A stretch of 64,000 nt of DNA from Antedon mediterranea (taxonomy: Eukaryota > Echinodermata > Crinoidea > Comatulida > Antedonidae): positions 6,792,922-6,856,921 of the forward strand of contig NC_092678.1 in the NCBI RefSeq assembly GCF_964355755.1, given 5' to 3'. The position numbers and the translations under genes were made by a program. Of this stretch, positions 6,168-56,435 are shown one piece after another. The notes below the pieces were generated by a model, which saw only the letters and a list, made by a program, of their open reading frames with translations, was not told the origin of the DNA and did not search any database. Numbering within the stretch: position 1 is the stretch's first letter; every line of letters begins with the position of its first letter.

Positions 6168-6220
6168 TTTTCTATATACTTTACCGTAAAGTACTTTATT
6201 ATAGAACTAAAATTTATATA

Positions 6221-6633
6221 GACAAAATGACAATACTATGTGTATCGGTGGCTGGATCTCAATAGAGAGTACAAAATAAAATAAGCACTGACAAAATGAA
6301 AATACTATGTGTATTGGTGGCTGGATCTCAATAGAGAGTACAAAATAAAATAAGCACTGACAAAATGAAAATACTATGTGTATCGGTGGCTGGATCTCAA
6401 TAGAGAGTACAAAATAAAATAAGCACTGACAAAATGAAAATACTATGTGTATCGGTGGCTGGATCTCAATAGAGAGTACAAAATAAAATAAGCACTGACA
6501 AAATGAAAATACTATGTGTATCGGTGGCTGGATCTCAATAGAGAGTACAAAATAAAATAAGCACTGACAAAATGAAAATACTATGTGTATCGGTGGCTGG
6601 ATCTCAATAGAGAGTACAAAATAAAAAATAAGC
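6221..6633. repeat. 69-bp tandem repeat, six copies
   Basis: Units starting GACAAAATGAAAATACTATG begin at 6221, 6290, 6359, 6428, 6497 and 6566. They are nearly identical, which suggests recent expansion or homogenisation. Each contains GTATCGGTGGCTGGATCTCA. The array lies about 700 bases upstream of the SEPHS2 start codon. Confidence 0.9.
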
Positions 6634-7337
6634 AGGAAGCTGAATCAAAACTATAAAGTAAAACAGCCAGAAATACTGTAAGTTTTCAGAAAACATTCCT
6701 TCATCAAAGTTAAAGACACAGATCATACTATAAAAATTATTACTGTTTACCAGGGAAAAGTGAAATTATTGTACAATTAATTTCTCTCATCGCAGAATAA
6801 ACCCATACATACATGTCTAATAATACTAACATTGAGACTATAACACTATCTTAAGCAATTGTATCATTTTTATTTAAAATTATAAAAAAGGAGGAATTCT
6901 ACATTCTGTAAACATGGATAAACCTTTGATAAATGGTGTATGAAATCATTAGATTGTATGTACAGTATGGTATAAAATGATACCTAAACTCAAATACATC
7001 ATAGTATTTGTCTATGCAAGTCAGATTGAACATTTTGGCAACAATTGCCTTTCATAAAATGAAACTATTATTTGATTGGTTGAGAAAGTTAAGAGAGGGG
7101 CGTTTCTATTTTTAACCACGTGACTAGTGGTGGTTACTCGACTGTGACGTGTGTGAAGTGAGGCGTAACAATAGAGGATTTTCCCGGGGATCAAATTGTG
7201 TTCTGTTTGCTTTAGGCCTAGAAATTGTCTTGTTTTTGTCAGTTTAAATTACACTATTATCGTAACAGTGCATGGTTAAATGCAGTAGTTGTTATTTTAA
7301 ATTAGTTTTAAATAAAAATTAAAATATACAGTATTTT
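6634..7337 (+). promoter_or_regulatory. Upstream region and presumed promoter/5' UTR of SEPHS2
   Basis: The last 260 bases before the start codon are less AT-rich than the surroundings. They include a CCAAT box on the minus strand (GATTGGTTGA near 7074) and the GC-richer segment ending TTTTCCCGGGGATC near 7190. The transcription start was not determined. The first 400 bases are plain AT-rich sequence. Confidence 0.4.
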
Positions 7338-10300
7338 ATGGCGTCGAGAACACCATTCGATCCGAAGGCCTGTGGTCTTGATGAAGATTTCAGGCTAACT
7401 CGATTCACTCAGCTGAAAGGATGAGGTTGCAAGGTCCCTCAGGAGGTACTGCTCAGCCTCCTGGAGGGCCTAGACAACGAAGGGGAGGGAGGGCTAAAGA
7501 AACCACCAACAGCTGGGAAAATTGGTAAGTATGATAATAATGGCATACCTATTGCATAAGCCTAGCATAATAAAACACTAGAATGTAAACTAAAATATGT
7601 GATTTACAATATAATTATTAATAATGTATGTATGGCAAATAATGCTACCAACCAAGTAAAAAAACAGCAACATGTTTATTGGCAAGCTTATATCTCCTAC
7701 AACGTCTAGAGTAGGTTTGTGGGACTTACTATTGCTTGACGCATAAGTAGAACTGGTCTTGCACAAATTGTACAACTAGGCCTACATTAAATAAGGATAG
7801 GTTATGCAAGAGGAAATGAGGTCAGATTTAGCAAACAATTGTTCAGCAACAGAGTTAATTGATTGGCATATTCTATACAATTACATAAACATTTTTTATT
7901 TATCCATAACTCTATTTTAATCTTGTAGGTATTGGAATGGACTCGGCTCTTATACCATTATCTATACCAGGTTTAAATTTAATTCAAACTACTGATTTCT
8001 TTTACCCACTAGTTGATGACCCTTTCATGCAGGTTCGTGCTTAAAACTCTGTCTACTGTACACTATCAATCTAGTTTGAAAAAAAAAAGTGATGTGCCCA
8101 AATATGGTAGTGGTACTGTATGCCCAAATATGGTTGATATGACATCATGTCATATCAGTTTGATAGGGTAGACAGAGGTTAACACATTCTATTATTCATT
8201 TCTAAGCCTAGTATCATTATATAGATGCATTATCCAGGCATGTACAGCTAGAGAAGTTTAGGGGCGAGTGTCAAAAAGTTATTGTGAGTGAAAACAAATT
8301 AGGCTGGGTGGAAGGCTTGCTTTAGAACACCTTATTCAGGGGAAACTTTCTCATGATACAATCAATAATTATTTAAACACCAAATTTATGAGGCAAATAT
8401 ATAACACAGTAGGTCTATTAATGGTGACTTATTTTCTTTTTCTCTCTGAAGCATGTATGGCAACTACTGTATACCTCTAATTTATGTACTTTTCCCTCCT
8501 TAAAATAGGGTAGAATTGCAGCAGCTAATGTTTTGAGTGACCTGTATGCCATGGGTACGACAAAATGCGACAATCTGCTCATGCTTTTAGGCATACCGAA
8601 GAAATTCAGCGAGAAACAACGCGACGTTGTCGTGCCATTAGTAATCAAGGGTTTTAAGGTAAGCATCACATGTGAAACAGTATATCAGGAAACTTTATGA
8701 AAAAATAGACAATAATAGAGGGTGCTATATAAATATGGCCTAGGCTTGAACTAATAATAATAAAAATGTATCCAAAACAATCAATCTCAAAATATTGAAT
8801 CATATAGTAGTTTATCATTTAATATTTAATGTAATGACTATACAAATATTTTAAATTTTTAATAATATATCTATCACTTCGAGGGTAAAACTACGACTGA
8901 TATTTTGTAGCGTTCTAAATGAAGAGGCCGTCATTCTATTTACGATATGTTTTAAAGATTTTAACTTTGCATTTGTTAAGACTTTCTAGGGTGGCCAATT
9001 TTGGGAGATGAATTATCATACAACCTCACCCCTCCCCAAAAAATGAAAATTGTGGGGTCAAAACATGCACCCTAAAACAAGTTTTTGAGTATCTAATATG
9101 AGAGGTGTCCACACACAAATGGTTCAACTGTATGTTTGCCTTTATTATAGGATGCAGCAGATGAGGCAGGAAGTCAGGTGACTGGAGGTCAAACTGTCAT
9201 TAACCCCTGGTTTCTTGTGGGAGGAGTTGCTACGGCAGTTTGCCACAAGGAGGAGTTTGTTATGTATGTCAACATTTATTTAATAAACAAAACATTGTAT
9301 TTTCCATTGCATTATCTTGTTGATATTTTATTACAGGCAATCTATAGAGGGTGCTGATCTATTTCAAATTACTGTAGGTGAAAGGTCGGCCGACAGGGAA
9401 TCCGATAAGATAGGAAAAGTGTATAAAATAAAATGATACTAAACTAAATTTTTGTATCTTAATTATTTATACATTGCCCAGGGAAGGAAGGCAATGGTTA
9501 CTCTCTAAGAATTCACACACAATGAAAATAATGAAGTTCAACTAATATAGCACAAAATGCCCAATGCTAAGTTCTCAACAATCAACACAAAAAATTATAT
9601 AAAAAAGAGCAATACCCAATTTTACAACAACCGATAGTTCCATGACATTTTTACAACCATTTTCCAATCAATGATATAATTGCCTTATTATTAAAAAAGA
9701 GCAAGAAAAGCGCTGAATGAAATAAAATTTATGTAAAATTTCATACAGAAACATTTGGAAATTTAACCAAGCCCAGATAAAACCAATTAAACAAACAAAT
9801 AGATAGATAGAGGGCTCTGTTCATATCCATGGAGTTACAATATTCAATGTACGATACCGTCCTGACAAATTGTTTATCTTTACAGTCACTCTTACTTACA
9901 AACGTATAATGAGTGTTAAACGATGAACCATATTGACACTAATTTTAGTGTTTATCGAATCGAAACGTTTGCTAAGATATCAAGAAGAGTTGTAAACAAA
10001 TTGGAGTGTAACGATAAGCGCTGCCCTGTGTTCGAACCAGGCTGAAATTTTGTCTCTGCGGTTTATAACTTAAATCCATTAATATACCCCTACTTTATAA
10101 ACAATTTGTAACCATTCGTATTTGAGATACAAAAAATACTATGGCTATGACTTTGAAGACAAAGTCACTACTACAGTAAACATATACTGTACATACAGCA
10201 TTGTTTCTTAAATATATATAAGATGAGATAAAAAAATATATAAAAATAATAATAATTTACCTTCATATTCTTTGATTGTTAACTCCAAAGTATATTAATT

Positions 10301-13300
10301 CCATAATAACATCCAAATCCAATTTTAAAAGGCAAAGAAAAATGACTTATTTGACTGCTGACTCCAAAACATAATATCCAATGGTAATAAATACAGTACA
10401 GTAATCCATTTCAAAATGTAGATAAAAACAAATAAATACACACTTTTTGACTGTTAAATCCAAAGCTTAATATTCCATGGTAATAACACATTGTTTTCAG
10501 TGTAAAACATAGTTAGTTTCTAGTTTATAAATCCAATTTAAAAGGCAAAGAAAGGCTGGCTTCAGTTCACTGGTAAAATGGTGGTGTCCCTACTTATTCA
10601 CTACAACAACAACTGAGCAAAAATCACAGCCAATTGTGTGAAATATGTGTATGCAAATGAGGATGCACCTTATGACTATTCATAAGGTAGATAGTTTTTA
10701 ATTAAACTGGATGTACTGTTTTTGTATCATTTATTCTAAATGTTTATGTGTTAACTTAGCATTTTAAGACATAGTGAAATGTAGTCATAGAAGAATAAGA
10801 TTAATTTTGTAATACAGTTTTATTCATGTTATTTATGACCTTTGTTTATGAAGTCATGTTATTTTATGACATTTGTTTAAAAAAAAATTCCTTGCATTTA
10901 ATACCACATACATGACAGCCAAATATCATCGGTATTCCTTATATAATATATAAAAAATTAATGAATTGAATATTACATTGATTTTAATAGACATTTATTC
11001 TAATTATGGATTAATTATATAGAACCACTATGAAGGGAACACCTCAAAGACCCAAACAAGGGTATAAAAGAAACTGACAGTTTTCCTTATTTTTTTTATC
11101 TTAAAACACCATTAATAGTATAAAAAAATCATTTAAAAATTATATTAATTAAATACAGTAGAATCCCTATTAAGGGAACACCTTTGGAACGTTAATAATC
11201 GTGCACCCTGGGTTGGCAGTGCTAAGGCATATTTCCACTCATTCCACTGAATAGGTGTTGGCTTTAGTACTAAGACATATAATTATCTCTACCCACTGCT
11301 TTGGTGGGCTCGAATCTAACATCTGACCAATTAAAATATTGTAAGTAATTTTTCCAAATATCATTATATAATGAACTGTTAATTTCTTCAATCAATATAT
11401 TAAATTTCTTTTATCATAAAATTCTTCTTCATCAGGCCAGACAAGGCACAAGCTGGAGATGTTCTGATCCTGACCAAACCTCTTGGCACACAGATAGCAG
11501 TGAATGCCCACCAGTGGCTTGAGGAACCAGACAGATGGCAAAAGATCAAAGATGTCGTCACAGAGGAGGAGGTAGAATGCGCTTACCAGGAAGCCATGTT
11601 TAACATGGCATCTCTTAACAAGAATGGTAAGGTTCTTGGAAACAAGTTCATTAGAATAAATGAGGTAGATCTAGGAGGCTAGCCTACTTGCTAAATTAAG
11701 CTCAGATTTGGATGAAAGCAACACGTTTCTAAAGCTCTGTCCACAATATCAAACTTTATGTGAAACAAGCACGAATGTGCAATACTCGGGGTACAGCGAA
11801 AGAAGCTGTATACAGACACAGTATACAGTTATTTCACCATAAAGTTAAAGAAAAATAGGTTTCGCCAGGGCTCGAACCGGTTCCTTCTGCGTGTTAAGCA
11901 GACTTGACAACCACTACACTACGAAACCTACTTACACTAAAAATGTGGGTTACAGAAAGTTTTTTAATCCATTTAAATTACAAATAAATATGGTAATAAG
12001 CACAAAGCAAAATAAACATGTGTAAAAGTGATAATTACCGATTACGCAAAATAAGTATTTTAAAAAATAATAAAAATAAGATATACTGTGTATAATTATC
12101 ATATTGCGTATACAGTACTTTTCACCATAAAGTTTTAAAAAAAGGTTTCGCCCGGGCTCGAACCAGGTACCTTCTGCGTGTTAAGCAAACGTGATAACCA
12201 CTACGCCAAGAAGCCGCATATAACTACATAACCCTGTGGTGTGTGTCACACATTGTGGCTTTTTAATTAAACAAATTAATTAACAAATAAGCACGAATGT
12301 GCGATACTCGGTGTACAGCAAATGAAGCTGTAATGACGTCATAAGACGGGATGTGACGTCACATACACATCAATAACCTACCAAATACGGCTATATGGTA
12401 CCATCTTCGAGACGTCTTATGGCTGCATCTGGTTTGAAAATGAAAAATCCGGCTCTATAGCTTTGAGGACATGTGCCTTTAGTATATTCATGCGAAATCC
12501 CAGCTCAATACTACAACGAATAAGGGAGGAGTAGTACTTTGAAAATCGCACTTTTTACTCAATAGTGTCCAGATGGAGGAGAAGGAGAAAATGAGTAAGT
12601 CCTAGACTCGGGTACCCCGAGTAAAAAAATGTGATGTGCCCATATATGGACATGGTGATGTCATATCACTACTACTCTAGCCATATCATACTTTTTTGTC
12701 AAACTAGTTTGATAGTGTGAACAGAGCTTAACGCTCTCTTGCTGTCCTGCTGCCCTCCAAATGGCACTTCACAAAGACATGGGCTGCATGAATCCAGAAC
12801 TACACATTTAAAAAGATGCTCTGGGTTCTTTTAAGTCCACAACAGCTACAGAAAAATTGTAGGGGCCTACATTGACCTCCAGAAAAATGTATTCATTCAC
12901 AGCTGTGCATAAGGAGAGTCTACAACCTATGGTGATTTTGATGATTGTACTGCCAAACTCATCAAGTAGAGTAACATACGATACGATAATATTTATTGTC
13001 ATTTAAACAACATAAAATGTCATTGGTTGAAAAATACGATATATAAAGAATCGTAACCAGTGATTCTAAAGTGTTCTTCCAAACTTACTGTTAAATCAGG
13101 GAGGAGTTAAATTACTGAGTAACTCTTCCCTGGTTAAATGATTGTCTGCAGCATTTAGTGTTTTGATTCAGAGTGATCGGTCTCTTTCAAAAGAGATTCA
13201 AGGTCTTTTCCGATACTTTTATTTGCCCACTTTTGTCCTGTCCTATGTAATATGTTCTTTCAACAACAAAAAAACGCATTCCCCATCTAATATTTCTAAA

Positions 13301-14313
13301 CATTTTGTCGCAAATTTTATTAAAATGCATATTTTTCCAGCTGCGAGCCTCATGAAGAAGTTCAACTCACACGCTGCGACAGACGTGACCGGCTTTGGGA
13401 TTCTTGGACATGCAAACAACCTAGCAACACATCAGTCACAGAAATTAAAATTTGTGATTGATAGGCTACCAATCATTGCGAAAATGACCGATACGGCCAA
13501 AGCGTGTGGCATTAAGTTTCAACTCCTACAAGGTTACTCAGCCGAAACCTCAGGTGAGGATGGAATTAACCTGGAAGTTTGTATATACTATTCAACGAAC
13601 TGAGTAGAATAGACCAGTCCGTCTTTCAACGAATGGAAATATTATCTCCTTTCCACAGTGCAGCACCTACTGTACCACAAACGACAGTGCATACAAGCCA
13701 GATGTGTAAAACCAGAATTAGGTCCAAGGAGATGCTGCGCCCCTACCTTAAAGATGCATTGTCCCCCAAAAACATGAAAAAAAAAAGGTCACAATTAAAT
13801 CAGACTTTGAATATGTTATTTTGTGGTTTTAAAAAAGTTAATCACTTCCATAGAAAAAAAAAATGTTTTCACCTACAAATTGATTAAATAAATGGTTAAA
13901 TTCAACCAAAAACCCACTGGCTGGCAGCCAATTTGGCCATTTTTTGCTTTAAATTACAGTTTTTTCAGATAAATACATTTTTTTTCGGTCCAATTTTTGG
14001 TCAAAGTGGATAACTATTATGTTACATTAAAATGGCATATTCAACAAAAATGTTAAGAATTATTTTTTCAGGGGGACAATACATCTTTAACAATTCAGCC
14101 AACTTATTTTACTAACATATATTAATTATTTTTCAAATAGGTGGCCTTTTGATAGCTATGCCAGCAGCAGATGCTGATGGGTTTTTAAGGGAATTTGAGC
14201 AATTAAGTGGCAACTCAGCCTGGATCATAGGGAGTGTAGAAAGCACAACTGAACCCGGAGCAGTGATCACCGACGGTCCACAAATAATTGAAGTAAAAAC
14301 TAAAATACACTAA
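7338..14313 (+). CDS. SEPHS2: Selenophosphate synthetase 2, selenoprotein (UGA at codon 29)
   Basis: The enzyme makes selenophosphate from selenide and ATP, the selenium donor for selenocysteine synthesis. Seven exons join in frame: 7338-7524, 7929-8032, 8509-8658, 9151-9263, 11436-11626, 13341-13553 and 14141-14313. They give 376 residues, close to the roughly 390 of animal SPS1. Codon 29 (7422-7424) is TGA in the context TQLKG-U-GCKVPQ, where SPS2 enzymes carry selenocysteine and human SPS1 has Thr. All downstream codons are open and conserved, so it is recoded rather than a pseudogene. Other family blocks are [49 protein letters not shown] and the ETSGGLL region. Introns carry MITE-A at 8041, a composite MITE at 11730 and a family D element at 13748. 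The ATG was chosen because the N-terminus aligns with human SPS1. Confidence 0.95.
7422..7424 (+). other. SEPHS2: In-frame UGA selenocysteine codon (Sec29)
   Basis: TGA is codon 29 counted from the ATG at 7338. It sits just before the conserved Gly-Cys-Lys motif, where SPS enzymes have Cys, Sec or another residue. The reading frame continues for 347 conserved codons after it. The SECIS-like hairpin downstream supports decoding as selenocysteine. Confidence 0.93.
8041..8181. mobile_element. MITE-A copy in SEPHS2 intron 2
   Basis: The left end CTCTGTCTACTGTACACTAT and the right end TTTGATAGGGTAGACAGAGG are inverted and flanked by TTA on both sides. The interior has CCCAAATATGG motifs. The element begins eight bases after the exon 2 donor at 8033. 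Confidence 0.8.
9264..11435. other. SEPHS2 intron 4, repeat fragments only
   Basis: The longest SEPHS2 intron, 2.2 kb. Related segments containing GACTCCAAA/TTAAATCCAAAGCT and 'TCCAATTTTAAAAGGCAAAG' recur between 10270 and 10560. A fragment of the family E repeat (CCCTATTAAGGGAACACC) lies at 11020-11190. No coding sequence was seen. Confidence 0.6.
11859..11929 (-). tRNA. tRNA-Val(AAC)-like gene or pseudogene
   Basis: The minus strand gives a seven-base acceptor stem GGTTTCG/CGAAACC, a D arm GTGTAGTGG as in tRNA-Val, an anticodon stem TCTGC/GCAGA around TTAACAC (anticodon AAC), and a T loop TTCGAGC. One T-stem pair is mismatched. It resembles eukaryotic tRNA-Val closely but is probably a pseudogene or SINE head, because a second copy lies nearby in the same element. 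Confidence 0.6.
12145..12215 (-). tRNA. Second tRNA-Val(AAC)-like copy, degenerate acceptor
   Basis: The minus strand repeats the tRNA-Val pattern: GCGTAGTGGTTATCACG, loop TTAACAC with anticodon AAC, and a good T arm CCTGG/CCGGG around TTCGAGC. The acceptor stem has at least two mismatches. Its flanks resemble those of the copy at 11859, so both arose by duplication of a larger unit. Confidence 0.55.
13748..14090. mobile_element. Palindromic MITE with TTAAAGATGCATTGTCCCCC ends (family D, copy 1)
   Basis: The left end TTAAAGATGCATTGTCCCCC is mirrored by GGGGGACAATACATCTTTAA at the right. The interior is shared in inverted orientation with a copy at 38574-38934, including the CTGGCAGCCAATTTGG block. 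It fills most of SEPHS2 intron 6. The upstream 102-residue frame that reads into it is not coding. Confidence 0.8.
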
Positions 14314-15268
14314 ATACTGTATGTTAAGATTAAGTGCAAATCTATGAGAAACTCATACTTATTTTCTTATAAAATACAAATCAAATATTATTTTTTGCAG
14401 AAATACAGTAGAACCTCTCCATTGGAAACCCCTATTTAGGGTACACTTTCATTAAAGGGTCACTTTGTGTGGTCCAAAGGTGTCCCCCCTAATGCGAGTT
14501 CTGTACCTTATAATGTACGATAATATTTTGACCATTATGTGCTGTTAATTTGTAAGGGACTGTATGATAATTACTGCAATAAAACCTTTTTTTGTGTGGT
14601 AATCACCCACACTGTATCAAAAATTTAGTTATAGCAGTAAGTGCAGTAAAATATTTTTGAACATTTTAAAATTCATAATCATTATTAATATTAGTAATTA
14701 ATATAAAATGTTGCCATTTTGATCATGCGATATAAATGTAAGGGATTCAAATTAATTATGTTTATTAAATCATTGTATGAAAAAATTGTGCAACAACTTT
14801 TGTTTTCATGACGATCCATGCTCCTACGAAGCTATTGAGTCTAATAGTCATTCTCATGTTTCAATGACTTTTTGACTCAACAGTTGAGTTGTTACGTGGC
14901 TTGTCACGACAAACAAAGGTGGCTACTGATAAAACGTACACAAAAAAAATGTTTTCATTTTTTTGGAAAAAATAATTTATGAATACTGATCATTTATGTT
15001 TAACTGTTTACCAAAATATATTAAATATTAATTTATGAATCAGTATTAATTGTTATACAATATTAATACTTTCTGTTTTTAGTTTCCCTTATCTTGTAAA
15101 AATTGAGCAGTTTACATAATTTGGGAAAATCCTAAATTAACATGGATTTGTCTGTACTTTTGAATATATTACGGATGATATTCCGTCAGGAAGTCAAATA
15201 TGAACTGATGGAATGGATGGTGGAATATTTCTTGGTAACCATTTCCATGTTCAGGAAGTATAAATAAA
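14314..15268 (+). other. SEPHS2: SEPHS2 3' UTR
   Basis: Inferred to be transcribed because it must contain the SECIS element. It includes a family E repeat fragment (GAACCTCTCCATTGG near 14410) and a TTACTGCAATAA-type fragment near 14570. An AATAAA at 15263-15268 lies about 35 bases after the SECIS and is the likely polyadenylation signal. An intron in this UTR cannot be excluded. Confidence 0.6.
15163..15231 (+). promoter_or_regulatory. SEPHS2: SECIS element of SEPHS2
   Basis: The element recruits SBP2 and EFSec so that UGA is read as selenocysteine. A quartet strand ATGA (15175-15178) faces GATG (15216-15219), allowing the tandem G-A/A-G pairs of the kink-turn core. Helix II is eleven pairs, TATTCCGTCAG (15179-15189) with CTGATGGAATG (15205-15215), with only G-U wobbles. 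The 15-base apical loop is A-rich, with AA at 15191-15192, twelve bases after the quartet, as in known SECIS elements. Below the quartet is an internal loop and then a five-pair helix I, ATATT (15166-15170) with AATAT (15224-15228). Worked out by eye. Confidence 0.85.
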
Positions 15269-15548
15269 TAACAAATGGTTTTTAATAATTAAAAAAAAAT
15301 TAAATATTATGTTGGTTATATGAAAAGAAGTACTATATGAATACATTTTGTAAAGATATCGTTTCTCAATTTTTTATTTTGTCTGCAATACAAATTGAAT
15401 AAATCCGGGTGATGCTCATCAAATTCTGACCACTGACCACTGACCACGAAAGACAAATGAGAAAAAGCAAATGATATATATATGGCCGACTTCTGTCGTA
15501 AATGACAATGTCAACTAGTCTTGCATTCATCTGAATGATGACTATTAA

Positions 15549-15828
15549 GCCAGGACTGTTTAAAGCACCTTTAGTTGGTCCCAACATTGACCAAGGGCTT
15601 CTCTCGTCCAGTGCCCACCTTCACCAGAGGAGAGGCATAAGCCAATATGTCTGAGGCAGATACTAGAGTCAGCAGTGCTGATTTCAAATGCCTAACGGTA
15701 CCCCAGCTCCATATACAGCACCCGGTATTCCCAGATGGTCTCCTATCCAAGCTCTAACCAGGCCAAACGTTGCTTAACTTTGGTGATCTGACAAGAACTG
15801 GTGTTTCAACGTGGTATAGGTCGTATAG
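15549..15828 (-). mobile_element. 5S rRNA-derived SINE, copy 1
   Basis: Read on the minus strand, the high-coordinate end starts TACGACCTATACCACG and continues as a degraded 5S rRNA: AGTTAAGCAACG, CTGGTTAGAGCTTGGAT, GGAGACCATCTGGGAATACC, GGGTGCTGTA. This is followed by a unique body of about 150 bases with GTATCTGCCTCAGACATA and GGGCACTGGACGAGAGAAG. The same head and body recur at 17812-18083. A third partial start (ACGTGGTATAGGTCGTATG) lies at 15887-15905. Confidence 0.85.
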
Positions 15829-15905
15829 TCTGTTATACAGTATTCAATTAGGGCATTGTATATCGCCCATGATTTAGGGCAACATAACGTGGTATAGGTC
15901 GTATG

Positions 15906-16440
15906 TAAAAGCAGGACAGTTGATTAAAACGGTACTAATGCCAATTTACTTTCAAATTTGTTTTCACTAGGAGACAAACCACACGTTTTACCTTTAACTT
16001 GATAGCAACAATTCTTGTTAGATCCAATTAGTTTGATTGTCACTATTCATTACCAGATCATTTACACAGCTACATGAGTTCCAAGTTTGTAATGTATATT
16101 TTTTTTTATCTTTTAAAAATTACAGACCCACGGCAGTTTTACTGAATATTAAAACAGCAAAAAATTATATATTAATAGTAGAAAAGATTTTTAATAAACA
16201 TAAAATATCTATACATCAGTTTCTTTATTAAAACATTATAAATAAACTGTCTATATACAAGCAAAATATCAACATCCTGCCATGATTTAATTGATCGAAA
16301 TAACGGCTAAAATTGTTTATAAACAACTGAAATTTTTATAAATTTTAAAATGTATCTCTAAACCTGCCAACATAAATTAATGTCATTTATTCAATACAAA
16401 TTCTTTCTAGAAAAGTAGAAAAAGATCCGATTATGTTAGA
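15906..16440. other. AT-rich spacer between SEPHS2 and APEX2
   Basis: The ends of two converging genes meet here. Besides AT-rich sequence there are TTTATT motifs (for example near 16225) that could serve minus-strand polyadenylation. No gene was recognised. Confidence 0.5.
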
Positions 16441-16447
16441 AATAAAT

Positions 16448-16453
16448 TTTATT
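16448..16453 (-). terminator. Likely APEX2 polyadenylation signal
   Basis: TTTATT on the plus strand is AATAAA on the minus strand, about 170 bases after the APEX2 stop codon. Another candidate lies near 16225, so this is a best guess. Confidence 0.45.
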
Positions 16454-16620
16454 CTGGTAAATCATCAACATCATTGATATGCCTTCCAACTTCCTGCCTT
16501 CTGGAAAGTACTGTAAATGTAAATCATTTGATTTGCAATGGCCTTCCGAAGATTTATACTAGTGCAACAGCTAGGTCTTTATTGTTGTTACTCCTTGTGC
16601 ATTGGTTGAGTTATTTACAG

Positions 16621-19600
16621 CTATTTTTTCTTCCAGAGAAAGAAGTTACACCTAGCCTCTGGATTAGATTTATGGCCTTCTGGTCTGGCACAAACATAGA
16701 ACTGTTTACCATAGTTAGGCCCAGCCTTTCTTACTGTTCTCATCACGCAATCCTCACTGTGTCCTTTGCACTTTGGAGGTGGCAGTGGCCCTGAAAATAA
16801 CGTTTTCCACGAAGAAGTTAACTTAGGTTTTTCTTTCACACTGTCTGATTCTTCAACTGATGTACTACTACTTTGACTCGACGACTGTGAGCAGTCTTCT
16901 TTCCCTGCTGTTTCTGAACATTTGGAGAGCTGTGATCCTTCTAAGGAATCATTTTCCCGCTCTTTATCTAGATCATCTTTTCCTGTCATCAGTTCTTTAT
17001 CAGGACTTAATCGATTGACTGTACTTGGCTTACTAAAAAAATTCAACAAATTCCCTTTGGTGTTATTAGATTTAAATTTCTTATTTTTATTACCATTTGG
17101 TGTTCCTGTCCTCTTAAGACCACTGACTGATTTATTGACTGATTTATTGTCTGATTTAAAAATTGGCGGAATTGTTGGTTTTTTGCTTGGCGATAGTTTT
17201 GTAAAAAAACTTGATAACTTTTGTTGTTTTCCGCTAAACTCCGGCATAAGTTTTGCACAAAGAGGTGGCAGTTTCTCAGACGGAACACATGTGCATTTGA
17301 GTTCCGCTGTAACTGGACAATGATCAGAACCTTCAACCTCTGGCATGATGTCACAACTGGAGACCTGTGTTTTCAGAAGCTCGACATCAGCAAATATAAA
17401 ATCAATTCTTGTTCCATAATTTGTCTCCCTAGCACTTGTTAAAGTTCTCCAACATGTAAATGCATGCGTCCTTGTTGGGTGTAAGTAACGGAAGGTATCA
17501 ACAAACAGCTTTTCTGATTGCTCGGTTATTGAGTCATTTTCATCATTATCACTATCTCCACCAATTGCCTGCTTCGTTTCATCTGTTGCAGTTTCATGTA
17601 GATCAACTAGGAAACGGTCCAGCCACTTTCTCCCGGGATGGCACATAAAGTATTCCTGTAAATTACAGGTATTAGTATCAGAATTAGTAAAGTTCAAACG
17701 CAATATAAAACCACTACCACTATTTCTAGGCAACTCTTATTTATTTTTATTTTATTAAATTGAAACCAACAGAGATAATTACCGTCACTAACAGGTTTGA
17801 TACAAACAAAGCCCAGACTGTTTAAAGCACCTTGATTGGTCCAAACATTGATCAAGGGCTTCTCTCGTCCAGTGCCCACCTTGCAAGGCAATTATGTCTG
17901 AGGCAGATACTAGATGCAGGGGCTGCCATAAGAGTCAGCAATGAATGCTGATTTCAAATGCCTAACGAGACCCCAGCTCCAAATACAGCACCCGATATTC
18001 CCAGATGGTCTCCCATCCAAGCTCTAACCAGGCCCAACGTTGCTTAACTTTGGTGATCTGACGAGAACCGGTGTTTCAACATGGTAAATTGGTGTTGTGA
18101 CACTAGCTGACCATTCTACTGTTTGAATCTACGTTTTTGAATTTATGGAGTTTATGGAGGCACAAGGTATTTTTGAGAAGCAAAAAAAAAAAATCCCAAA
18201 ACAGTACAACAGGAATTTTGACAGCACAAGTCACAGATGAAAAGTGAGGGGGACAAATCCTTCCTAAATAGATTATACACACACTCAAGACTATCCACAA
18301 TTAAAGAAACAAAATGACTGTTTTATTTTGTGTGTTTTTGTAATAGTAAATTAAAAATTGTACTTTTGTTAGTAGTTTAAGTGAACGCACCTTTATTTAT
18401 AAAGATAGATATAAAAGCGTATGTTCAATAAATTATTATTATTATTACTTTTTTATTTTATCAAGAACATTATACATTGTTTGTTTACACAATTTGAATA
18501 TTGTGTTTACTCAACCATACTATATACATTTTGATTGGAGGTGTCCTCATTTGGTCACCTTAATAAAGGAAATTAGGGTCCTTCTTGTTCAAGGAAAAAG
18601 GAGGAGAAAGAAGGATGCTTTAAGCTTTTTCCCTGTACTAAATCACCCAAGTTTTGTATAATGTTTCTGGCGTTTTTTTTTCTAAGCGCGAGCGTGTAGG
18701 CTTAAATTAAGTCATAGGATATTTTATCATTTTTTAAAAGATATTAATTGATATTGATTGACTTGTGATTGAGAATGAAATTCACTAAAGCTCTGTCTAC
18801 ACTATCAAATTTTATGTGAAAAAATCATGATATCATATTACTATCATATTTGGGTATATCAATACTATTACTATATTTGGGTATTACCCAAATATAGTAA
18901 TACAGGTATTTATATCACTACCATATTTGGGTATATTGACTACCACCATATGGGCACATCATACTTAATTTGTCCAACTAGTTTAATAGTGTATGACAGA
19001 GCTTAAGAAAAAAAAATGGTAGCATACCTCATCTTGTGGGTCACAATGATCAATGGGGCGATGGCAAGAGTTGATATCGCCAACAATTACAACATGCCTG
19101 TAAAAAAAAAGAATAAATTTAGCATGTTTGAGAGACACATGCATTTAATATGCAAATGCAATCATTTGTTGCACACTGTGTGAACATAGAATTGCTAAGA
19201 ACTATTGCTAACCTGCAGTGTAGCGCTTATATAGAAAGCATGCTCAAAATAAAATAGAAAAGTTTTCATCCTAGAACTATTAGGATAACGTAACCAGTTT
19301 TATGTTGCCTAAACTGTATTGTGCCCAAATATGGTGGTGTATGCTTAAATATGGTAGTGATATGGCATCATCATGTCCATATATGGGCACATCACATTGT
19401 TTTGTCACATAAAGTTTGATAGTGTAGACAGAGCCTATAGTCCCTCGATTTGATTGTTCTTATTTATATGTATTGATCATCATTTGATTGGTTAAAAGAC
19501 AGCATAATTAATGGTTATCCTCGAGTTCTAGAATTAAAAACTAATTTCTTTTGTTTTATGTACGATTGTATGTTTAATTACTTATTGTTACATCATCTTC

Positions 19601-23209: not shown

Positions 23210-26200
23210 TTATAATTCATCTTTTTTTTCTGCTTTTTCTGTTTCCTCCTGTTGAAATAAAAAATCAACATAAATTAATAATACGCAAGGAAGTGTGTTG
23301 TAACAAATATTTACATGATTGATTTGTACAACAATGTATGAAAATTGTATAACAAATTAACAAATCTCGTAGAAAGAGATGCTTTTTTGACCCAATGCCC
23401 CTGGTTTAGGAACCTTAAGTGGCTGGACATATTTTAATGCCTGTTTTTATATCTGAACCCTGCTCAGTGCACCCCCCCCCCCCCTTCATTCAATATACAT
23501 ATGTGTATATCTTACCTTTTCTTGAACTGGTTCCTGCGTTGGTTCGGCCTCCTCCTCATCTTCTGCTTCATCATCATCATTGTCATTATCATCGTCACCA
23601 GCCTCATCCTCATCCTCTTCCTCCTCTTCCCATTCTTCAGGCTGAAAATAGAGATGGATTCAAAATAAGATCTTATAAAACACTTTATTTAATTAGAAAT
23701 TCTCATCAAAATTTTGCATGCAAGAATTGCATCCATGCACTAAGTTCATTAAACATAAAAGTCAGAAAACAACAACAAAAATCATGACCGTTAAAAAGGA
23801 AATTTATTTTTTATACAAAAACATTGGACAATAAGACATAACCAATATGATGATTAGGAAGGAAAGAAGAAATTAGAAGAAATGGAATTTTAATCTTAAT
23901 TTCATTTTTCTTTTTCATAGATGAACTTTGTCCTTTGGGCTGAGCATTACTAAATTAACATATAATTTCAATCTAGTTTATAATTTAACCTTTTTTTTGC
24001 ATTTAGTTAACAAGGAAGTAGAGGATCTAATAAAATTTGGAGAAATTGCACCTTTTCTTAAATTTGAATATCGTCAACAATGGAGAGTTGAAAGGTCAAT
24101 AATAGGTCAAATACGAAAATCAACCAACCTTTGCGTCTGGGTCAATGTTCATGCTCATTTTCAACATTTTCTCGATTCGACCAGCAAAGGCTGCTGGGTC
24201 TTCTAGAGCGTATCCAGATCGAAGGACGGCAGTCTCAAACATAACATTGGCAAGGTCTATAGCCGTGGCATCCTCTGCATCAGACTCTACTCTTTGGAGA
24301 AGTTCTTTAACTAAAGGATGTTTTGGGTTAATTTCAAGAGTTTTCTTCTGTCCTTTGTAGAATCTACATAAAACATAAGCAAAAGGTAAAAAAATTATAC
24401 TCGACAACAGATACTTGCATCAGTCGTTTTGATTGGCCGAAACATTACAAGTCTTTGTGTAAAGTGCCAATCGTCTAAACTGCATGAATAGATGTTACAC
24501 ATACAAGTCCTTTTTGTGTAAATGCCACTAAACATTTGTTTACAACAGGGGTGAAAATGGGTTTAATACAGGGGAAGAAATGAACCAAGCCCCAGAGTAA
24601 CCCTACCCTTCTAATGATAATCCTTGGTGGTTTCAAAGTACCATGTGTGTATACTGGACCAGAACTATGGTTGAGTGACTTGTTGCCCATTGGCAATTTA
24701 AGCTAGTGTGAAAATCCATGGTTCTGTGGTAGAAAGGAAGAGTCTTCTCAGATAAGGAATATAAACCATAGGTCCAGTTACACATCTAGCTCATGTGAAC
24801 TTGTACATCTTTAACCGGTTGCCCCCGTCATTCTTTAACTGAAGAGGTCACCAAGAATAAAGAAATAATAAAAATAATGCAATACTGTAACATACCCTGT
24901 GTTTGAGTCTTTAGCCTGTGCATAGGCTTGTGCTGTCATGATACGTTCCATATTTCCAGACCATCCGTACGAACTGGCGACCAAAGCACATGGTGAATCG
25001 GTAAGACGTTGCGATACCTTGGCATCCTTGATCTAATGAAAAAAAAACATTTATAACATTACTACAGCTCAACATATAAAACGGAGGCTTGCTTGCACCA
25101 CATTTTATCGATTTCAAACTAACAAAATAACATTATAAATGCGAAGAAATTTAAACTAACATTATAAATGCGAAGAAATTTAAACATCACATGCAAACAA
25201 TTAAGAGATCCTAGGTGTGCACAGGTGTCTTGTGAAGGACAGCGCCACCAGCTAGGCTCGGATAAAAGTAACAGGGCCAGGCTAGGTATACATCTGATGT
25301 CATATTTGTGTAAAATGAAATCAGTAATATTTCTATTGTTTGACCTTTATATAGCTATTACCAAACTTCAGCAAAAAGTTTCAAAGTGTTAAGAAATCTT
25401 GAAGACTACAAATGGGTGTGTTCGTTTTCTCTCAATAGTTTATTTTAATAAGAGGAATTTTTCCAAAATTTGGTCGATTTGACACTTAAAACATACCTTA
25501 TCTTGAAGAGCACTTTCTTTCAGCCACTCTGTGAGTGGTTCAAATTCCTTCTCCAATTCCTCACGTTTCTCTTTCTGTTTATCAGATTCATCGCCCATCT
25601 TTAATCCTTCTTTTGCAACGTTCTGGAATTTCTTTCCTTCAAACTCTGGTAGAGACTGAATGCAGTACTCATCAACTGGCTCTGTCAAGTACAAGACCTC
25701 GTAACCCTTCTTGAGGAGTCTCTCAACAAATGGTGATGTTTCAACCTGAAAGGAAGTACAAAGCGTTTTACAGATAACTATCACTCTCAGACTTTCTGAA
25801 AAACAGAAACTCTTCCAATACCAGACATCTCTTGAGCTTCAAAATGTCTCAAAATCTGTTTTGATCATTAAATACACATTCCGAAAACCAGACTTTCCAT
25901 AAAACCATACATATTAGTTATTATCTATATTCCAGTAAGGGATTTTGACTAGCATCAGAAGTATGAGACACCTCTGTGCTATATTGTTTGTATCCATAGG
26001 CTACTCTCATCCTTCGGACAGGACATAAAGCTGTTGGTTCTGTACACATACAATTACATACTATTTGAATAGTGAATGAATCGAACCAATCACTGAACAT
26101 CACCATATATCTAGCTTTGTGGTTAAAGATGTTGGCTACCAATCCCAGTGTCTTGGTTAAAATTCTTTCGGATGTCAGGATTTTTTTCTCATGACAAAAA

Positions 26201-51812: not shown

Positions 51813-52012
51813 ACTGCCCGGTACAAGTCAAATGTTCTATTGCACGGTACAAGTTGAATGGTTCTATTGCACGGTACAAGTTGAATGGTTCTATTGCACG
51901 GTACAAGTTGAATGGTTTTATTGCACGGTACAAGTTGAATGGTTCTATTGCACGGTACAAGATGAATGGTTCTATTGCACGGTACAAGTTAAATGGTTCT
52001 ATTGGACGATCG
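51813..52012. repeat. 27-bp tandem repeat, seven copies
   Basis: The unit GGTTCTATTGCACGGTACAA (then GTTGAAT) repeats about seven times with few substitutions. Because 27 is a multiple of three, frames stay open and encode repeated FYCTVQVEW or NGSIARYKL. There is no evidence for expression. Confidence 0.9.
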
Positions 52013-52043
52013 GCCTTGAGCCATGTAAATATTTATTTTCTTT

Positions 52044-52204
52044 AAGCTTTGTTCCCACTTGGACGCAACGTAATGACGTAGCAAACTGAAGGCGGCGAGT
52101 TGACCAATGGCAAGCGATAGTTCAAATAATCCATCACTTGTGATTGGTCAAATTAGGTGTTGCGCTTACATCCTTGAGTTTGCGTACTAGTGAGATCCAA
52201 GCAT
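52044..52204. mobile_element. MITE-B copy
   Basis: It runs from AGCTTTGTTCCCACTTGGAC to TACTAGTGAGATCCAAGCAT with central CCATCACTTGTGATTGGTCA. TTA (left) and TAA (right) flank it. Confidence 0.7.
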
Positions 52205-52230
52205 AATGGACGACTCGGGAGACAACCTAA

Positions 52231-52437
52231 AGCTTGGTTCCCACTAGCGACGCAACGTAACGTAATCTACGCAACGTAAGCAAATGCCCTTCTAATAATT
52301 GTGTTTGCTCCCGCCTGCGTGAAATCAAACCTGCGATATTTGCAGCACTATTGCGTCGTCGGTTCCCACTTGTGATTACGCAATACAACACTTTGCGTCA
52401 ATACGTCGCTGCTTGCGTTCTAGTGGGAACCACGCGT
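52231..52437. mobile_element. MITE-B variant copy
   Basis: It begins AGCTTGGTTCCCACTAGCGA and ends CTAGTGGGAACCACGC. The interior (ATGCCCTTCTAATAATTG, GTGAAATCAAAC, GATTACGCAATACAACACTT) matches the variant at 42074-42262, so MITE-B has at least two subfamilies. Confidence 0.75.
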
Positions 52438-52728
52438 TACTTTCGTAGGCCGAGGAGGTTATTTCAATAAATTTGCGTCAAACCAAAACGGAAATTAAGG
52501 ATTCATCAAATTTGTTCCGAATTAAGAAAATAAATTGGTTATATTTTTCTGTTTATCATTCAAACAATCAAACAATTGTTCATCGTCAAATGATATCGCC
52601 TAATGCAAGAAAAACCACAAAGGTACGCAGTCATGTATATTATTGGCATGATGACATCATCAGTATAGTGATTGATCAAATTACTTGCATTGCGCTTACG
52701 TTGTAAGTACTGTAATTGTCGCCTTTTC

Positions 52729-52868
52729 CTAAAAAATATGATATTCCCATATACTACTACTATATGGACATGATGATATCATGTCACTACCATATTTAAG
52801 ATCACTACCATATATGGGCACATCACATTTTTTGGACACATAACGTTTGATAGTGTACGTCAATGCTG
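52729..52868. mobile_element. MITE-A copy, diverged
   Basis: It contains TGATATTCCCATATACTACT, ACCATATATGGGCACATCAC and the end CATAACGTTTGATAGTGTAC. The terminal CAGAGCT is lost. Confidence 0.65.
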
Positions 52869-52879
52869 TTATGCCGTTT

Positions 52880-53477
52880 TCAAAGGTGAACTGTTTACAT
52901 TGTTTGTTTACGGCGTTGATTAAAGATAAAAAAATAATTTTCTTTTAAAATATTCTTGTCTTCATTGAAACATTACACAGAAGTTAAATATGCATTTGCT
53001 ATCAATTGAACTCAAGATGCAACAGAGTGACGTAATGAGTAAGTGCGCGGAAAACAATGACGTCACATCGTAAATAGAGAAAATGTAAACAAACTATTTA
53101 GGACAATAATCTCATAATTCTCGAATCATACAATAAAACATTTGTTGGTTTGTTTATGGCTCGTTCTACATTGTTTGTAATCTTTTCTCTGTTTTAATAA
53201 TTGACAGTATTCGAAGATATGGAACACTGTCAGATAATGAAATAGAAATACAGCCTTATTAAATGCACCCCCGAGAACCCCGATTGATACAATGCAACGA
53301 CGTAAACGTAACGTATCGATGCAACAAGGCGTAAGAAAACTTACACTGTGTGTCAAAAGTGGAAACCAACGACGCAATCACGTTCCCGTAGACGAATGAT
53401 TCATTTAACGTCATTTTCAGTCCTTGCGTACTGTACGTCGCAAAAAGGATGATTCAATTTTTTGTAAGAGGGGGATG
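52880..53477. other. Spacer with MITE-B-like remnants
   Basis: Fragments such as CGACGTAAACGTAACGTATC (53298) and GTCCTTGCGTACTGTACGTCGC (53420) resemble MITE-B arms, but no complete element can be outlined. No gene was seen. Confidence 0.45.
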
Positions 53478-53479
53478 CT

Positions 53480-54795
53480 GTAGTGTTTCAAGGTAGAAGA
53501 GGAAGAAGGGGAGGAGTGGTAGAAGAGAAAAAAGGGGAGGAGTGGTAGAAGAGGAAGAATAGAAGTGGAAGAAGAGGTAGAAGAGAAGAATAGAAGTGGA
53601 AGAAGAGGTAGAAAAGGAAGAATAAAGGGAGGAGTGGTAGAGGAGGAAGAAGGGGAGGAGTGGTAGAAGAGGAAAAAGGTGGAGGAGGGGTAAAAGAGGA
53701 AGAATAAAGGGAGGCGTGGTAGAAGTGGAAAAAGGGGGAGGAGGGGAAAAAGAAGGGGTGGAAGGGTAAAAGAGAAAGAAGGGGAGGAGGGGTAGAAGAG
53801 AAAGAAGGGAGGAGGGGTAGAAGAGGAAGAAGGGAAGGTGTGGTAGAAGAGAAAGAAGGGGAGGAGTGCTAAAAGAGAAAGAAGGGGAGGAGTGGTAGAA
53901 GAGGAAAAAGGTGGAGGAGGGGTAAAAGAGGAAGAATAAAGGGAGGCGTGGTAGAAGTGGAAAAAGGGAAGGAGGGGAAAAAGGGGGGTGGAAGGGTAAA
54001 AGAGAAAGAAGGGGAGGAGGGGTAGAAGAGAAAGAAGGGAGGAGGGGTAGAAGAGGAAGAAGGGAAGGTGTGGTAGAAGAGAAAGAAGGGGAGGAGTGCT
54101 AAAAGAGAAAGAAGGGGAGGAGTGGTAGAAGAGGAAGAATAGAAGTGGAAGAAGAGGTAGAAGAGAAGAATAGAAGTGGAAGAAGTGGTAGAAGAGGAAG
54201 AAGAAAGGGAGGAGTGGTAGAAGAGGAAGAAGAAAGGGAGGAGTGGTAGAAGAGGAAGAATAAAGGAAGAAGTGGTAGAAGAGGAAGAAGGGGAGGAGTG
54301 GTAGAAGAGGAAAAAGGGGGAGGAGGGGTAGAAGAGGAAGAATAAAGGGAGGAGTGGTAGAAGAGGAAGAAGGGGAGGAGTGGTAGAAGAGGAAAAAGGG
54401 GGAGGAGTGGTAGAAGAGGAAGAATAAAGGGAGGAGTGGTAGAAGTGGAAAAAGGGGAAGGAGGGGAGGAGGGGTAAAAGAGAAAGAAGGGGAGGAGTGG
54501 TAGAAGAGGAAAAAGGGGGAGGAGGGGTAGAAGAGGAAGAATAAAGGGAGGAGTGGTAAAAGTGGGAGGACGGGAAAAAGGGGGAAGAGGGGAGGAGGGG
54601 TAAAAGAGAAAGAAGGGGAGGAGGGGTAGAAGAGAAAGAAGGGGTAGAAGAGGAAGAATGGGTAGAAGAGGAAGGAGATGTATTAGAGGAAGAAGGGGTT
54701 GGGAGTAGAAGAAGAAGGTATGGGAGTGGAAGAAGAAGGGGTTGGGTAGAAGAGGAAGAAGGTGGTGGTGGGGAAGAAAAGGAGTAAGAATGTGA
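53480..54795. repeat. 1.3 kb purine-rich (G/A) minisatellite
   Basis: The plus strand is almost entirely G and A. Units of about 25-27 bases resemble GTAGAAGAGGAAGAAGGGGA followed by GGAGTG. A higher-order duplication of about 231 bases is visible: blocks at 53661 and 53893 both read TGGTAGAAGAGGAAAAAGGT and continue alike. The 340-codon minus-strand Ser/Pro/Leu/Phe frame comes from the repeat and is not a gene. Confidence 0.95.
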
Positions 54796-54899
54796 GGGGG
54801 AGATAATGTAGGGGATGAAGAAGAGGAGGGGTATAGAGGAAGAAGAACATGGGTAAGGGAGAGAGAGCGTGATACAATGAAAACAAATCAAATTTATTG

Positions 54900-56435
54900 G
54901 TAGATACTGTACTTCGTTTGTGAAGCAAATTTATTTGATAAAAAACTAGGTTCAGTAAATGAACATACATTTATTATTATGTTCTATTTATTAGAAAAAA
55001 GTAACTTCGAAAAAGACTGATCCTTAAAAAAAAAAAGCAGAGCGAATTTCTACAATAACCAATCATTATTATAAGACTATTTTATTAAAAGAGAAAATTA
55101 TGTCTTAATAGAAACTTTATTATGGGATATAATATCTCACACTCAACCCATGATTGAATCGAACCAATGTTTACTTTTTTAAAGATCTTATTACTTGGTA
55201 AAGCTTGTCTATTTGCATCATAACGTCCACAATTTTCCATTTATCTTTTGATTCCCTTTTTAAAATTAATAATAATAAATGTTCTTCGCGAGTTCCATAA
55301 AAATCGATATATTGATAACGTCACAAAAGCGTAGTAAAATCTCGAGTTATCTATGTATTCAATATAGACCGAAATAGTAAGTAGCGGTCTCTACATTTTG
55401 CCAACTTTTTCATGAGCGGTTATTTTACTTTTCTTGTAATTATATTATATCTCATTCTTATTAAGAATTATATGTGAAGGTTAGATATTAAAGATAGAAA
55501 ATATATCATATTTACATAATCTTCGTTATGTAAATGAGATATGCCACCACGAAAACATTTCATTCGCTTTTATTCCAATATTCTAGGAAAATTAAGAAGG
55601 AAATTCTAGAATTTCAAAACGTCTATTATTTTTAAATTTGTCTAAAACTTTTTAATCTTTATTAAGATGAAATTTAAAAAATAAAATGGTAGTGATACCC
55701 TTTGGATATATTTTGCCAATTTAGTTTTTACATCATTATAAAGACAAAATTGACAAAAGTATTGGGTTTTGGAATTAGTCAAAATAAAGATATAATGTTT
55801 CTTGTTGTTGAAAAGGCTCTTTGATTGTCATTTATTCATTTTCAATAACAATTAAAGAAACAATTACCTGTAATTCTAAGAAAAAAAGTTTTCCGAAAAC
55901 CAATTATCTGTTTTGCGTTAATACATTTTTAATTCATTTTTCTTACTAATCATTATTTTTGTTTGGCAAAAATGAACAACTTTTAAATACAAAAAGGCGT
56001 ATTTAATGTTTGATTTTGCTTTTCATCTTTATGTTTTATGTTTTGGGGACAATACATCTTTAAGTTGTTTGAAATATATAAACAAAAATATCCTGTGTTC
56101 TGTAGTGGCATGTCACATAAGCAATAACCTGATCTGTCCTTTTATATCTTTCTGTTTGATTCCATCAAAACTGAAAAAAAAAAAACAATGAAGATAAAAA
56201 CTGGTGGTAATTAAAAAAAAATAACCATGATTTTTTTTAAATTTCATTTTTTTTAAATTTTATATATAAAAAGTCTTTCAGTATTATTAGTAAAAAAGAG
56301 TGTTTAGGAGGTAATAGCCCAAGTCTGTAAGACATTCTATTAAAAGGAAAATATGTAGATAGAAATAATAATTTATTGTATATTTAATATCTAAGAAAGG
56401 TTTTTTTACTTATTTTACAATTGAAATAAGACTAA
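54900..56435. other. Intergenic, strongly AT-rich
   Basis: No gene was recognised. Only the right end of a family D MITE (56043-56063) stands out, and the rest of that copy cannot be delimited. Confidence 0.5.

Follow-up and report, generated by a model that had tools for sequence, protein, structure and literature searches.

The 64-kb window of the Antedon mediterranea genome that was analysed here carries, on its forward strand, a selenophosphate synthetase (SPS) gene of seven exons, the borders of which were placed from sequence and homology. Exon 1 (7338-7524) begins with an ATG at 7338, which is preceded by an upstream in-frame stop, and ends at a GTAAGT donor; exons 2 to 6 occupy 7929-8032, 8509-8658, 9151-9263, 11436-11626 and 13341-13553, and the coding part of exon 7 (14141-14313) closes with a TAA stop at 14311-14313. 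Joined, the exons give 1131 nt with remainder 0, or 376 codons plus TAA, and all six introns start with GT and end with AG. The translation contains one internal stop, the TGA of codon 29 at 7422-7424, which stands at the selenocysteine/cysteine (Sec/Cys) column in the context LKG-U-GCKVPQE. Intron 5 contains two tRNA-like sequences on the minus strand, at 11857-11928 (38.9 bits) and 12143-12215 (33.1 bits; threshold 29 for both), and a tandem repeat with a unit of about 70 bp, in some six copies by eye, occupies 6207-6644 and ends about 700 bp upstream of the ATG.

Human SPS1 (9hjt/3fd5) matches the predicted protein at 480 bits over residues 1-374 (phmmer), Leishmania SPS2 gives 303 bits, and the NCBIfam selD model (TIGR00476) scores 257.6 bits against an equivalog cut-off of 125; both AIRS domains are present. 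Read from its sequence, the gene is an intact multi-exon SPS with a match quality far beyond chance, and the in-phase, full-length synthetase of seven exons that a preliminary description had put here is borne out by the frame, the splice borders and the similarity to human SPS1. The same description had assigned the sole in-frame stop to the Sec/Cys position, and alignment to SPS1 and SPS2 proteins agrees, with the TGA falling on that column opposite Thr29 of human SPS1 (phmmer) and Cys46 of Leishmania SPS2 (four-way alignment). Eight catalytic or ATP-binding positions were mapped from Leishmania SPS2 with a residue list taken from PMC7595633, where the labels Lys46, Asp64, Glu173 and Asp279 misfit the chain and were re-mapped by motif or number to Lys49, Asp74, residue 173 (Gln) and Asp278; on this list, a little uncertain for those four labels, the window gene has TGA at one position and the Leishmania SPS2 residue at all seven others, including the catalytic Lys. 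In the four-way alignment of the window gene, human SPS1, Leishmania SPS2 and the second SPS gene described below, the window gene is the lone departure at 9 of the columns where the other three sequences agree, and the second gene at 41.

At 0.85 kb past the stop codon, our own structural scanner and direct pairing predict a candidate SECIS-like element at 15162-15230 on the plus strand. Helix I (15162-15172/15220-15230), in its best ungapped register, pairs at 10 of 11 positions, the core consists of AUGA at 15175-15178 and GA at 15216-15217, helix II (15179-15189/15205-15215) pairs at 11 of 11 positions, and the 15-nt apical loop carries an AA (15191-15192) on its 5' side, 12 nt downstream of the core UGA by direct pairing. 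The scanner, which looks for AUGA or GUGA, a hairpin with unpaired AA or CC, and GA, was used in three versions after Rfam scans had missed the element; the energy of the candidate was -21.3 kcal/mol in the first version and -18.2 in the later two, owing to different flank lengths. The candidate is the only scanner match on the plus strand of 14230-17600 and the best of five over both strands of the window (-18.2 versus -13.5 kcal/mol for the next), and among first-order Markov resamples of 14314-15400, 75 of 1000 gave any scanner match and 0 of 1000 reached -18. As a positive control, the scanner obtained -27.4 for the SECIS of a GPx gene with the motif NVASQ-U-GFT, which Rfam SECIS_1 also places, 1.2 kb after that gene, at 34 bits and thus under its cut-off of 35. 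With E values of up to 10 allowed, SECIS_1 still gave no match to the window candidate, and a genome-wide search with this model missed it as well. Scanner scores are not free of false matches, since scanning both strands of the 12 fetched loci (44,809 bases in total, with two loci overlapping the window) also gave a match of -16.1 that lies antisense within another gene. The 106-nt stretch around the candidate has a z of -1.46, and 16 of 200 shuffles do equally well; its minimum free energy structure retains helix II at 8 of 11 pairs and loses helix I, and the fold of the whole region lends weak support; the energy model leaves the non-standard pairs of a SECIS core unscored. An AATAAA signal precedes the candidate at 14578-14583 and another follows about 30 nt past it, at 15263-15268; use of the proximal signal would yield mRNAs from which the candidate is absent.

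A further predicted structure adjoins the in-frame UGA itself. An SRE-like hairpin on the plus strand (7426-7478, -31 kcal/mol), separated from the UGA by a single base, has a z of -3.86, with 0 of 200 shuffles as good; for a larger stretch around it the z is -2.21, with 5 of 200 shuffles as good. It resembles the SRE structures that Mariotti et al. (main text of PMC4561486) report from this part of SPS genes with a UGA.

The genome (354 Mb in 18 contigs) was searched for the machinery of Sec synthesis and insertion and for other selenoprotein genes. Two tRNA-Sec genes, both with anticodon TCA, score over the cut-off among 46 matches, SepSecS is matched in three pieces and the eEFSec domain in one, whereas PSTK gives weak matches in two pieces, below the cut-off of the whole-protein family. 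The thioredoxin-reductase model gives 17 matches, one of which, in the C-terminal exon, extends to the end of the model and holds one TGA. Three of eight GPx matches contain TGA, two of them in a Sec motif, NVASQ-U-GFT and NTATY-U-GFT. No match to the Rdx family (SelT, SelW and SelH) was found in the genome search, and a search for COX1 gave none either. The complete selenoprotein system claimed in the preliminary description therefore stands for tRNA-Sec (two genes), SepSecS and the eEFSec domain, and falls short at the weak PSTK matches and at Rdx. Two observations were made alongside: the third-best tRNA-Sec match sits in a tRNA-Ser array, with 11 tandem tRNA-Ser genes in 3 kb at locus L003 (G000 C10:15179878-15182960), and downstream of the GPx gene with NTATY-U-GFT the scanner returned a match of -14.4, a possible SECIS (L011 2112-2155, plus strand).

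The genome search for SPS gave 13 matches in two places, seven belonging to the window gene and six to a second gene on the minus strand of C9 (23805721-23809125, equivalent to 8626-5222 of locus L006; matches spanning 23805727-23809125), on the same chromosome and 17 Mb away. Once its exons were joined, the second gene likewise comprised seven, giving 393 codons with no internal stop. The two genes share the intron phases 1,0,0,2,1,1 at all six introns, and five of the six coincide to the residue in the alignment, the first being displaced by two columns where the alignment is gapped. At the Sec column the second gene reads LKG-S-ACSLPE, with the Ser codon TCT, and thus has a residue other than Sec or Cys, the SPS2 of this genome being a separate gene. 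Seven of the eight catalytic or ATP-binding positions, as re-mapped from PMC7595633, are changed and only Asp120 is kept, whereas in human SPS1 the Sec column alone is altered; opposite Asp74, one alignment places Asn of the second gene and another His, and neither places Asp there. We considered and rejected a plain pseudogene, given the open seven-exon frame and the bias among codon positions in comparison with the window gene (231, 259 and 140 of 375 aligned codons identical at positions 1, 2 and 3, respectively). The gene probably lacks a SECIS, because the sole scanner match downstream on its strand lies 3.7 kb past the stop, antisense in a DUF1751 gene. It is apparently an SPS1-type pseudoenzyme whose Sec column holds Ser.

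The second gene is the less expected part of these results and matters more than the window gene, which is itself new only as a member of its family. Mariotti et al. (main text of PMC4561486) describe four SPS duplications, in which the column holds Thr, Gly, Leu or UGA/Arg; a figure legend there also allows an unknown residue. Like SPS1-Thr of vertebrates, SPS1-Gly of tunicates, SPS1-Leu of clitellates and SPS1-Arg of insects, the second gene encodes neither Sec nor Cys and is the partner of a UGA copy; it differs from them in having Ser and, on the re-mapped list, in the change of six of the seven further catalytic or ATP-binding positions, which human SPS1 keeps. The word serine does not occur in the main text of that paper, and our literature search met no SPS1-Ser, no pseudoenzyme selenophosphate synthetase and no echinoderm SPS1, which is short of showing that the Ser form is absent from print. 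The molecular function of SPS1 is called uncharacterised in the legend to Figure 4 of PMC4561486, and the function assay in its main text is rescue of a fly mutant. An open SPS1-type copy that has lost most ATP-site residues offers a ready test of whether the SPS1 role needs catalysis.

We consider it highly probable (about 0.93) that the window gene is an intact SPS2 (SEPHS2) in which UGA 29 is decoded as Sec. The UGA at KG-U-GCK, the SECIS candidate, the hairpin after the UGA, the active-site residues and the Sec machinery are all features of metazoan SPS2; the gene differs in that at 12 columns it has the Leishmania residue against a different one common to human SPS1 and the second gene, and it was compared with human SPS2 through a provisional, non-database sequence only. 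According to the main text of PMC4561486, SPS2 is encoded by all metazoans except some insects and nematodes, and a Sec-containing SPS2 is therefore the usual state in animals. Reading of codon 29 would depend on tRNA-Sec, eEFSec and a SECIS-binding protein, assisted by the adjacent hairpin, and the enzyme would convert selenide and ATP to selenophosphate, while the copy 17 Mb off probably carries a separate SPS1 role that involves no catalysis. The Sec-containing SEPHS2 of the preliminary description fits the SECIS candidate and the Sec machinery at the level of prediction, and the window gene matters mainly for annotation, in which the UGA should be given as Sec and the SECIS marked.

The UGA might instead be read as another amino acid in a gene with no SECIS, as proposed for Hymenoptera; such SPS1-UGA genes are described for Hymenoptera and some Paraneoptera in the main text of PMC4561486, and they share with the window gene both the UGA at the same column and an RNA structure beside it. 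The preliminary description, in which no SECIS was named, was compatible with such a gene as well. The strength of the hairpin next to the retained UGA, the proximal AATAAA at 14578, from which SECIS-less mRNAs could arise, and the failure of Rfam to recognise the SECIS candidate would all suit such a gene. The window gene nevertheless differs from SPS1-UGA in having a predicted SECIS and in lacking the hexanucleotide GGG-UG[C/U] reported in that text, in place of which it has GGUUGC. Because the SECIS candidate is accompanied by Sec machinery in the genome, SPS1-UGA is unlikely at the level of prediction, and an ordinary, textbook SPS2 selenoprotein is the better description. An SPS2 is moreover needed, since TGA also occurs in the Sec motif of other genes and, of the two SPS genes found, only the window gene has a Sec/Cys codon at the column; we therefore regard a SECIS-less reading as very improbable. 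Still more improbable is a decaying copy, in which the TGA would act as the stop that it is under the standard code and have arisen by simple nonsense mutation: that stop lies exactly on the Sec column of a frame of 1131 nt that has no other stop or frameshift and GT-AG borders at every intron, and the window gene shows 9 lone departures to the second gene's 41.

The age of the pair is a separate question from the identity of the window gene as SPS2. With four sequences and Leishmania SPS2 as outgroup, the split that groups the window gene with Leishmania, and the second gene with human SPS1, has a lead of 20 lnL units, is recovered in 9980 of 10000 RELL replicates (9983 of 10000 when gapped columns are removed), and is favoured by 12 parsimony columns versus 3 and 4 for the alternatives. 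With a bacterial SelD as outgroup (264 columns), the split placing the window gene outside is recovered in 9433 of 10000 replicates, at 5.7 lnL units and with 6 columns versus 5 and 2. A search for relatives gave one bacterial SelD in genome contigs and no match in viral contigs. When provisional, non-database sequences of human SPS2 and fly SPS1 were added, the window gene again fell outside the rest with a support of 89, the support for the placement of the second gene being 39. At face value, the duplication would be older than the split from vertebrates, which conflicts with the single-gene metazoan ancestor argued for in the main text of PMC4561486. We keep this age as a lead only, because the trees comprise only four to six sequences, two of them provisional, with remote outgroups, and because the same text warns of faster SPS2 evolution after duplication and of long-branch artefacts.

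The somewhat likelier history is that of a lineage-specific duplicate pair, comparable to those of vertebrates, tunicates, clitellates and insects, in which the window gene would be outgroup-like in appearance only; such a pair is compatible with the SPS2 reading. Both genes lie on the same chromosome and their introns agree in position, apart from the first, and in phase, and the post-duplication speed-up and long-branch artefacts reported in PMC4561486 could mimic an old split. Against it stand the tree comparisons above and the fact that the long branch in the four-sequence tree belongs to the second gene, not to the window gene. It is conceivable, although we find it doubtful, that the animal ancestor had two SPS genes, the window gene continuing the old SPS2 line and the second gene, catalytically dead and with Ser, the line of human SPS1. 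If that were so, the SPS1 role would need no ATP chemistry and the published single-gene metazoan ancestor would need revision.

Other features were noted in and around the two loci. A recurring short element, MITE-like by eye, with TTTGATAGTG-like parts and CAGAGC near its end, occurs within or close to each of the two SPS genes (window about 12630-12730; L006 about 4680-4540 and about 6840-6680, minus strand). On the minus strand of the window lie two dispersed 5S rRNA-like sequences (15710-15828 and 17980-18097), an open frame at 16621-17736, presumably APEX2-like, with a GRF zinc finger and a sub-cut-off match to the endonuclease/exonuclease/phosphatase family, and an exon of an HSP90 family gene (25440-25838). 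The region 52001-56000 is strand-biased, with a GC skew of 0.43, and its minus strand has long open frames of low complexity at 53417-54930.
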